Of a stretch of DNA of 64,000 bases, positions 60,930-64,000 are shown piece by piece. Made by a program: the position numbers and the translations under genes. Under the pieces are notes generated by a model that was not told the DNA's origin, made no database searches, and worked only from the letters and a program-made list of their open reading frames with translations. Origin of the DNA: Gemmatimonadaceae bacterium (GTDB lineage: Bacteria; Gemmatimonadota; Gemmatimonadetes; Gemmatimonadales; Gemmatimonadaceae). Location of the stretch: positions 868,001-932,000 of the forward strand of contig JADLCY010000001.1 in the NCBI GenBank assembly GCA_020846935.1, read 5' to 3'. How positions within the stretch are numbered: the stretch's first letter is position 1; each line of letters begins with the position of its first letter.

Positions 60930-62147
60930 TTAGTTGAACGTGGGTTTGGCCACCGGCGCCGTGAGGTCGACGCCGCGCGCCAGTGCGTAGTGCGCCCACG
61001 CACGCACGCGTGGACTCGGATCCCGGTCGGCGGCCGCGCGGGCCACCTCCACGGAATCCCTGCGCTGCGCCAGGCGCACCACGGCGTAGGCCCGTGACTC
61101 CCAGCGCACATCGCGCATCAGCGACGTGAGTACCTCTCGCGTCGGCGCCACGCGTACGGTCGCCACCGGAACCGCGACCGCGATGGTCGCCGCGATCGCC
61201 ACCAGCGATGCCCTTCGGGAAGGCACGCGCACGACGCGCGTGGTGTCCGCGATCGCCTGCAGACGCGCGCGAAGGCCGCTCCGCCTGACGAGTGCCGCCG
61301 CCCCCGCCGGAATGCCGTGACCGTCCAGCGCCGTCACCAACAGCTCCGCGTAGTCACTCCGTCGCACGCCCCCGAGCAGCACCCGGTCGTCGCAGGCAAG
61401 CTCCACGTCTTCGGCGAGTTGCGCGCTCAGCCACCACACACCGGGATGGAACCACAGGAGCGCGCAGGCCACGCGTGCCAACACGGTGAACACGGCATCC
61501 CGGCCACGCACGTGCATCAGCTCGTGCAGGAGCGCCGCGCGCCGCTGCGCCTCGCCCCATTCGACCGCGGCAACGGGTACCACCACCACCGGTCGTCGCC
61601 ATCCCCACGTCATCGGTACTCGGACTCCGGTCGACATCACCAGCTGCACGTCGCCCCGCACGCCACTGGCAGCGAGTGCTGCACCAAACGGCTGCTGCCA
61701 CCCCGCATCACGCAGGGAGGCCGCGCGCGCCAGCAAGCGCACCAGCCGAACGCGCGACACCACCAACGGCGTGAGCACGGCCACCACGCCGCACACGTAC
61801 AGCGCGGCGAGCCCCGGCACCAACCACGAGGCGCCGTCCCGCACACCGGAGGTGCCCACCGCCAGCTGCGCCGTGCCTAACGCGATGAGCGGCGAAGCCA
61901 GGCCCTCCGGCACCACCCACGCCATCCAGTGAAACGGCACCAGGCGACCCAGCGCCGTCACGAGCACCGCCACGATCGCCGCACGCCAGAGCAGGACGCG
62001 TGCGCCCGCCGAGGCGCCACGCATCGCGAGCATGACGCCAATCGCCAGCACGATCGGTACCGTCGCCAGCAGCGACACGCCGTACACCTCTCCCACTGCA
62101 CGCGCGCTGTCGGCGGGCGTCATCAACAACGTGCTCGACATCGCCAT
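60930..62147 (-). CDS. BlaR1/M56-type membrane zinc peptidase with HEAT-like tail
   Basis: 405 residues from ATG 62147 (an ATG two codons later and one at 62201 are also in frame). Four or so N-terminal membrane helices flank a cytoplasmic loop with the zinc motif HELMH at 208-212 and the third ligand in EDVELACDDRVL. After the last helix (VAIAATIAVAVPVATV), where BlaR1/MecR1 carry a penicillin-binding sensor, there is instead a short helical segment like HEAT repeats (VREVLTSL-type and RDPSPRVRAWAHYALARGV). It should cleave the BlaI-like repressor in response to an unknown signal. Spaced 15 bases from the DUF2723 gene. Confidence 0.9.
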   Translation of the reverse strand: MAMSSTLLMTPADSARAVGEVYGVSLLATVPIVLAIGVMLAMRGASAGARVLLWRAAIVAVLVTALGRLVPFHWMAWVVPEGLASPLIALGTAQLAVGTSGVRDGASWLVPGLAALYVCGVVAVLTPLVVSRVRLVRLLARAASLRDAGWQQPFGAALAASGVRGDVQLVMSTGVRVPMTWGWRRPVVVVPVAAVEWGEAQRRAALLHELMHVRGRDAVFTVLARVACALLWFHPGVWWLSAQLAEDVELACDDRVLLGGVRRSDYAELLVTALDGHGIPAGAAALVRRSGLRARLQAIADTTRVVRVPSRRASLVAIAATIAVAVPVATVRVAPTREVLTSLMRDVRWESRAYAVVRLAQRRDSVEVARAAADRDPSPRVRAWAHYALARGVDLTAPVAKPTFN

Positions 62148-62320
62148 TGTCTCAGCACCCCTCCGCGCGCAGGCGATCTGCGACGACCTGCACTTCGTCA
62201 CATTCGCCCGGCGTATGCGACTGCTCGCTCGACATCGTCATCGTCTCAACGCCCCTCGGCGCGCAGGCGCTTCACCACCGCCTGCACTTCGTCGCGCTCG
62301 CCCTGCGTGAGTGGCAGCTC
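62133..62320 (-). repeat. 94-bp imperfect tandem duplication across the blaI/blaR1 junction
   Basis: 62133-62226 and 62227-62320 align without gaps: 73 of 94 positions are the same by hand count (about 78%). The right copy is the real BlaI C-terminus, its stop, and a downstream ATG. The left copy keeps a decayed version of the same protein end (CDEVQVVADRLRAEGC against RDEVQAVVKRLRAEGR) and holds the real start of the M56 gene. Confidence 0.85.
62152..62241 (-). CDS. Possible 29-residue leader ORF between the BlaI-like and M56 genes
   Basis: Created by the 94-bp duplication. An ATG at 62241, five bases after the BlaI stop, opens MTMSSEQSHTPGECDEVQVV then ADRLRAEGC and ends at TGA 62154-62152, four bases before the M56 ATG. 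The first five codons mirror the M56 N-terminus (MTMSS against MAMSS), showing that this was once the M56 start. If translated, it would couple BlaI and M56 translation; it may equally be silent. Confidence 0.4.
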   Translation of the reverse strand: MTMSSEQSHTPGECDEVQVVADRLRAEGC

Positions 62321-62632
62321 GCCGTCATCGAGGAGGGCGGCGACCGCGGCCGAGCGCGACCCGTTGAAGAACGTGCTGAGCAGGTGCCGGACGGCCGAAC
62401 GCTGCGCCACGCTGCGTGGCGTCACCGGGAGATACACGTGTCGCGGCCCATCCTTCACGTGCCGCAGTTGACCCTTGCCTTCGAGGATACGCAGCAGCGT
62501 CCGCACAGCGGCCGCATGTGGCGGTTCCGGCAGCTCGTCGCGAATCTGCACCGCCGTCGCACCACCGAGGCGGTACACGACATCCATGATCTGGCGTTCG
62601 CGACGGGAGAGCGAAGATGGCCTGGGCGGCAC
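62246..62632 (-). CDS. BlaI/MecI/CopY-family transcriptional repressor
   Basis: 128 residues from a GTG at 62632. Winged helix-turn-helix: SLSRRERQIMDVVYRLGGAT, AVQIRDELPEPPHAAAVRTL and LRILEGKGQLRHVKDGPRHV, followed by a dimerisation helix (RSAVRHLLSTFFNGSRSAAV) and the C-terminal QGERDEVQAVVKRLRAEG. It is expected to bind upstream of the operon and be cleaved by the M56 peptidase next door. Its 3' end is inside the 94-bp tandem duplication. First gene of the operon BlaI, M56 peptidase, DUF2723. Confidence 0.93.
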   Translation of the reverse strand: MPPRPSSLSRRERQIMDVVYRLGGATAVQIRDELPEPPHAAAVRTLLRILEGKGQLRHVKDGPRHVYLPVTPRSVAQRSAVRHLLSTFFNGSRSAAVAALLDDGELPLTQGERDEVQAVVKRLRAEGR

Positions 62633-62737
62633 GGGCGATGGTTGCGGGGAGGACGTCGAGATAAGTTCTTATCTTCTGCGCGCGGCGTCAAGGCTACCCC
62701 GGCGGCCGGCGCCTCGGACCCGCATTAGGTTGTCGCG

Positions 62738-64000
62738 ATGACCGACGACGTGCAGCAGCTCAGGCGCATTGGACTGTCGGAGGCCCAGGCTGCCATCAAG
62801 GCGGAAATGTTCCGGCGGGCCGACGAGGCGCTCGACGGCATCGGGGCCGATGCGGCGAGGTGGAGCATCTGGGTGCCTGGCCGACTCGAGGTCTTCGGCA
62901 AACACACGGACTACGCCGGTGGCCGCAGCGTGCTCTGCGCCGTCGAGCGCGGATTCGTCGTCCGGGCCGCGCTCCGGCGCGACCGGCGCGTGCGTGCCGT
63001 CGATGTAGCGCTGCAGGACAGCTGCGACACGTCGCTGGATCCAGACGTGCCAAAGCCGGAGGCGGGGTGGCAACGTTACGTGGCGACGGTGGCGCGGCGC
63101 CTGGCGCGCAACTTTCCCTCGGCGCGTCGCGGCGTGGACCTCGCGTTCCACTCTGACCTCCCGATCGCGGCCGGCATGAGCAGTTCCAGTGCGCTCATGA
63201 TCGCGGTGTTCGTGTCGCTGGCCAAGTCGAACGATTTGCGGAGCTCCGAAGAGTTCCGTCGCGAAATCTTTTCGCGCGAGGAGCTGGCCACGTACCTCGG
63301 CTGCATCGAGAACGGGGACGCGTTCCGCTCGCTCGAGGGTGACGGCGGCGTGGGCACGTTCGGGGGAAGCCAGGACCACACGGCCATCATGTGCAGCATT
63401 CCGGGCCGCCTGGTGCAGTACGGCTTTCGCCCCGTGCACCGTGAGGCCGTGTACCGCATGCCGCCAACGCACACGTTCGTGGTGGCGTCCTCCGGTGTGG
63501 TCGCCGAGAAGACGGTGGGAGCCCGCGACGCCTACAACCGCGCGTCACGCATGGTGACGCACCTGGTCTCGGCGTGGAACGGGACGACCGGTCGAGCGGA
63601 TCCAACGCTCGCGGACGCACTGCGCAGCAATGCCCGCGCGTCGGCGCGTCTGCACGAAATCGCGCGCGCGGAAACAGGGCCGTTCTCAGCGGACGAGTTG
63701 ACGCAGCGGCTTCAGCAGTTCGAGCTCGAGGCGCTGGAACTGATCCCGGCGGTGGGCAGCGCGCTGGCGCGTGGCGCGTTCGACGAGCTGGGGCCGCTGT
63801 CCGATCGTTCGCAGCGTGCGGCGAACGAGTGGCTGGGCAACCAGGTGGCCGAGACCACGTCGCTGGCGCGACAGGCCCGCGAACTGGGGGCAACGGCGGC
63901 GTCGGCGTTCGGCGCGGGGTTCGGTGGCAGCGTGTGGGCGCTCGTCCCGTTAGGCGCCGCCGACACATTTGCCGCTTCGTGGGCGGCCGCGCATGCCGCC
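62738..64000 (+). CDS. Galactokinase-like GHMP kinase (partial, runs off the window)
   Basis: 421 codons from ATG 62738 with no stop before the edge. Family motifs in order: WVPGRLEVFGKHTDYAGG at about 46-63 (galactokinase signature, with F-G-K where I-G-E is usual), DLPIAAGMSSSSALM near 142-156 (ATP loop), VGTFGGSQDHTAIMCS, and the third motif FGAGFGGSVWALVP near 390. Galactokinases have a catalytic Asp in the D-Q-x-x region, present here as SQDHTA. It could be galactokinase or another sugar 1-kinase. It is divergent from the BlaI-like regulator, 105 bases away. It contains a TTA codon in P-L-G at 63949. Confidence 0.88.
   Translation, partial: MTDDVQQLRRIGLSEAQAAIKAEMFRRADEALDGIGADAARWSIWVPGRLEVFGKHTDYAGGRSVLCAVERGFVVRAALRRDRRVRAVDVALQDSCDTSLDPDVPKPEAGWQRYVATVARRLARNFPSARRGVDLAFHSDLPIAAGMSSSSALMIAVFVSLAKSNDLRSSEEFRREIFSREELATYLGCIENGDAFRSLEGDGGVGTFGGSQDHTAIMCSIPGRLVQYGFRPVHREAVYRMPPTHTFVVASSGVVAEKTVGARDAYNRASRMVTHLVSAWNGTTGRADPTLADALRSNARASARLHEIARAETGPFSADELTQRLQQFELEALELIPAVGSALARGAFDELGPLSDRSQRAANEWLGNQVAETTSLARQARELGATAASAFGAGFGGSVWALVPLGAADTFAASWAAAHAA

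Follow-up and report, generated by a model that had tools for sequence, protein, structure and literature searches.

A single 94-bp tandem duplication at the junction of a BlaI-family repressor gene and an M56-family membrane protease gene has, in the lineage of this Gemmatimonadaceae bacterium (G000), moved the protease start 98 nt from the repressor stop. The resulting spacer is filled by a chimeric open reading frame of 29 codons, which lies 4 nt from the gene on either side. We put at about an even chance the reading that this mini-ORF relays ribosomes terminating on the repressor gene to the protease gene, while its peptide has no function. The arrangement is a small variation on ordinary translational coupling, which is the usual state of this operon in related genomes.

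The repressor-protease operon

The repressor gene occupies 62632..62246 on the minus strand of the window, the whole 64-kb stretch of DNA that was analysed, and encodes 128 amino acids from a GTG start to a TGA stop at 62248-62246. A Pfam Penicillinase_R domain (PF03965, 2e-23) covers residues 8-121, a full-length domain of the BlaI/MecI type. The protease gene (62147..60930, minus strand) encodes 405 amino acids from an ATG at 62147, with a Peptidase_M56 domain (PF05569, 2.2e-27), the HExxH zinc motif in the form HELMH at residue 207, and an N-terminus that can be aligned with MALPTDLLLTPADSARAV of the closest relative, G001. A GTG at 62201, inside the duplicated BlaI end, was rejected as the protease start: it has a weak Shine-Dalgarno pairing of -2.5 kcal/mol, and the ATG at 62147 matches the alignment of relatives. 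As in the BlaI/BlaR1 and MecI/MecR1 pairs, a Penicillinase_R repressor adjoins an M56 membrane protease; unlike them, the order is repressor then protease, and Pfam finds no C-terminal penicillin-binding (beta-lactam-sensor) domain in the 405-residue protein. Because Peptidase_M56 is its sole Pfam domain, the protease is an M56 partner and not BlaR1 proper. The C-terminal region past the protease domain (60930-61250) has no Pfam match and a repeat-like look (RWESRAYAVVRLAQRRDS...SPRVRAWAHYALARG), and is perhaps HEAT-like.

Upstream of BlaI, before a divergent GHMP/galactokinase-like gene, there is a palindrome, AGATAAGAACTTATCT, at 62660-62675. Akin to it are GACAAGATCTTGTC (G015), GATAAATATTTATC (G009) and GAGATAAAATATTATCTC (G066), such sites often lying just downstream of a TTGAC box, and sites of the form GAYAA-N4-TTRTC are seen upstream of BlaI in several orthologs; the palindrome is a likely candidate for the BlaI operator, with that form as its candidate consensus. 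In several orthologs (L016 of G009, L004 of G002 and L005 of G003) the BlaI ATG stands a few bases past the operator/-10 region, for example in GATAAATATTTATCCTATGG, which suggests a leaderless BlaI mRNA in these genomes. The sequence CATTAGGTTG occurs at 62723-62740 of the window and again in L003 (G004), each time directly upstream of where the divergent GHMP-kinase-like gene starts, and could possibly be a promoter or leader element.

The duplication and its chimeric reading frame

Both copies of the unit lie on the minus strand and contain a BlaI 3' end, a stop codon, 4 nt, an M56 start and five M56 codons. In the first copy (62227..62320) the BlaI end is the real one, followed by TGA, GACG and a duplicate M56 start, ATGACGATGTCGAGC; in the second (62133..62226) a BlaI C-terminal "ghost" is followed by TGA, GACA and the real M56 start. 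The initial annotation had counted by hand two copies in register, about 78% identical and spanning the end of BlaI and the start of M56, and the alignment bears this out, with 73/94 positions (77.7%) identical and no indels. Tandem Repeats Finder reports a matching array (62133-62308/62330, period 94, score 235-240), which is the top tandem repeat of the window, the runner-up scoring 63. Homology drops abruptly at the unit borders, with 8/30 and 15/30 matches beyond the two ends. An origin through microhomology would have only about 2 nt, common to the exact ends of the unit and the flanks, to draw on. Searches of congeners and of two other family members found no such duplication. Within its own genome no second copy of the array was found, the other matches being short, at about 16-41 nt, and close to chance level, and a comparison of the mini-ORF DNA with plasmids gave no match.

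The mini-ORF itself (MTMSSEQSHTPGECDEVQVVADRLRAEGC; 62152..62241, minus strand) joins MTMSS, the first five M56 codons, to EQSHTPGECDEVQVVADRLRAEGC, the last 24 BlaI codons, and terminates at the copied BlaI stop. The initial annotation was right about this ORF and about the coordinates of the duplication: 4 untranslated bases separate it from the BlaI stop and another 4 from the real M56 ATG, and both gaps fall within the range of coupled pairs, about -4 to +10 nt. The M56 frame is one ahead of the BlaI frame, and since 94 is 1 mod 3, the copied M56 start falls in frame with the copied BlaI tail. For the same reason the ghost is out of the M56 frame and, as had been claimed, cannot be read through into the protease. 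The flush fit arises because the length of the duplication equals the frame offset, a one-in-three accident; as a by-product of a single duplication, it is therefore not independent evidence of function.

Junctions in relatives and the age of the ghost

Junctions were drawn from family, order, phylum and GTDB genomes (Gemmatimonadota, Acidobacteriota, Planctomycetota and others), the M56 frame downstream of BlaI being located by profile search. The M56 start lies no more than 20 nt from the BlaI stop in 193 of 198 unique junctions, with -4, +1 and +2 the commonest offsets; in the first junction set 146/153 fell within -8..+8. Those close relatives that were examined have the ribosome-binding site of M56 within or beside the last BlaI codons, a placement that has the appearance of a coupled gene pair. 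This resembles termination-reinitiation coupling as described elsewhere (PMC10666635; PMC12548453), with stop and start a few nucleotides apart and the downstream ribosome-binding site in the last codons of the upstream gene; G000 differs in that two junctions of this kind follow one another, separated by a 29-codon ORF. Of the remaining five junctions, L058 has a masked start, L204 carries an ATG at +5 with its frame broken, and three are real spacers: 98 nt in G000, 81 nt in its congener G002 and over 230 nt in Singulisphaera acidiphila (L064), where the middle is AT-rich, there are several stops, and no bridging ORF was found.

The G002 spacer (L004:1879-1959) holds an ORF of 25 codons, MHHASLGRRARRVAGGLRAPTNRGR, that begins 2 nt past the BlaI stop and finishes 1 nt ahead of the M56 ATG. 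Compared with its own flanks and with the G000 unit the spacer has no significant similarity, and an origin as a decayed duplication of either was rejected on that ground. An equally flush ORF appears in 0.3% of dinucleotide shuffles of the spacer when ATG starts are required, and in 1.1% when GTG and TTG are allowed. The sister of G002, G003 (BlaI 92% identical), has no spacer, and the tree supports G002 with G003 at 100/100 and G000 with G001 only moderately, at 83/85. The two spacers probably have independent origins, because the tree forms these pairs and the sisters G001 and G003 both lack a spacer. The G002 case, a single one from a metagenome assembly, is to our reading the best evidence that an open, flush frame may matter.

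G001, the closest relative (BlaI 82% and M56 66% identical), has an ordinary junction, TGAcgATG. Both copies in G000 carry the codons GTG CAG (Val-Gln) where relatives mostly have Leu-Ala, and since these codons are specific to G000 the duplication must postdate the split from G001. The copies differ at 19/69 coding bases, close to the 20 differences between G000 and G001 at those codons, so that the duplication is not recent within the G000 lineage. The view of the initial annotation that the substitutions mark the arrangement as old and retained gains no support as evidence of selection. Polarised with five relatives, 14/19 differences are assigned to the ghost and 5/19 to the real BlaI end, so that the ghost changes about three times as fast. 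By codon position the ghost changes number 4/3/7, with no clear bias, the sites being too few to reveal one. Seven amino acids have changed (P to S, L to H, R to C, A to V, V to A, K to D and R to C), mostly at conserved positions, including L108 and R113, which are invariant in an eight-sequence alignment; because of this the ghost peptide is not bound to BlaI function. In neutral simulations without indels, 5 substitutions left the frame open in 67% of runs and 19 substitutions in 24%; so long as indels are absent, drift is expected to leave the mini-ORF intact about one time in three. The half of the unit near the ribosome-binding site shows 7/46 differences and the 5' half 14/48, which is not significant (p 0.14).

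A proposed ribosome relay, its alternatives and precedents

Each of the two starts keeps its native Shine-Dalgarno-to-ATG spacing. The mini-ORF is preceded by a Shine-Dalgarno-like GAGGGG at approximately 62251..62258 (minus strand; -7.8 kcal/mol), within the last BlaI codons, which is the ancestral M56 ribosome-binding site, and M56 by a GGAGGGG at approximately 62157..62164 (minus strand), within the duplicated BlaI C-terminal codons, with a pairing of -10.0 kcal/mol to the anti-Shine-Dalgarno sequence. In E. coli reporters re-initiation was down by 80-100% at 38 nt and, for several pairs, had all but disappeared by about 20 nt (PMC10666635); longer-range coupling is also cited in a review (PMC12548453). 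Since re-initiation falls so steeply with the distance between stop and start, M56 should lose its coupling to BlaI across a bare spacer of 98 nt. Under the relay, ribosomes terminating on BlaI would re-initiate 4 nt later at the mini-ORF, translate its 29 codons, terminate, and re-initiate once more 4 nt on at M56, so that the tight coupling of the ancestral operon would be preserved in two steps. All that would then matter is that the frame is open and flush at its two ends, and we infer that the peptide itself is functionless. The initial annotation had suggested that the arrangement keeps repressor and protease coupled, and this is plausible in view of the tight junctions and the flush ORF of G002; the relay step itself is what we infer.

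The relay is favoured because spacing is tight in nearly all junctions and because two independent, unrelated spacers are both filled flush. It is weakened because in G000 the flush fit came free with the duplication and the ORF would survive neutrally with a probability of 0.24-0.67; because the codon-position pattern of the ghost shows no clear bias and the Singulisphaera gap has no bridging ORF; and because the grouping of G000 with G001 is only moderately supported and none of the relatives searched carries the duplication. Coupling may even be dispensable, since M56 possesses a strong Shine-Dalgarno sequence of its own. A neutral duplication, with M56 initiating alone from the duplicated ribosome-binding site in the second copy and the mini-ORF a passenger that has yet to decay, accordingly keeps a substantial chance of being the truth, if a less than even one. 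The pairing before the M56 ATG equals that of the strongest orthologs, the ghost has changed at conserved residues at about three times the BlaI rate, and about one neutral case in three would be expected to keep the frame open; against this, the 193/198 tight junctions imply that spacers are normally not tolerated, and the independent spacer of G002 is likewise filled by an unrelated flush ORF. Were the duplication neutral, it would be of small interest.

It is improbable that the mini-ORF acts as a regulatory leader, reducing M56 output or making it conditional, through stalling for example or loss at each re-initiation, and so shifts the ratio of repressor to protease, the tuning that the initial annotation had offered as an alternative. 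Two re-initiation steps should pass fewer ribosomes than one, and two spacers in one genus would permit lineage-specific tuning, but there is neither a conserved peptide nor an attenuator-like run of codons, and the two leader sequences are unrelated. A function for the 29-residue peptide itself, for instance as a decoy that mimics the C-terminal dimerisation helix of BlaI, is very hard to credit: the peptide is still similar to the last BlaI helix (DEVQVVADRLRAEG), yet it covers no more of the domain than that final helix, is absent from every relative searched, and has taken seven amino-acid changes in the ghost lineage, most of them at positions conserved in the family (L108, R113, V, K, R).

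The closest described precedent, as far as the review's account of them goes, is the mycobacterial MIRUs (PMC12548453, citing its ref. 77): these insert at the start of a gene, and that gene is coupled to an ORF inside the repeat. There, as in G000, a short repeat-derived ORF stands at a gene start and the downstream gene stays coupled; in that account MIRUs are dispersed, apparently mobile and form -4 overlaps, whereas the G000 case is one local tandem duplication that leaves gaps of 4 nt and was found once, and the search of its own genome did not return the multiple dispersed copies of a MIRU-like element. Ribosome-"delivering" uORFs (PMC12548453) are similar in that a short ORF may serve only to supply the next start with ribosomes, but the G000 ORF sits within an operon, between two genes, and not upstream of the first gene.

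A broader generalisation, which we offer tentatively and consider rather unlikely, is that insertions in tightly coupled repressor-protease operons survive mainly if an ORF spans them and fits flush at either end, G000 and G002 being independent cases in which selection restored coupling through a relay ORF whose peptide need not be useful. If the relay is true, an in-frame duplication of a junction would be tolerated because the hand-over of ribosomes continues, and this would be a simple route for the birth of short ORFs inside operons. Each with a sister that has no spacer, G000 and G002 form a clean natural pair for gauging selection on the coupling of repressor and protease.
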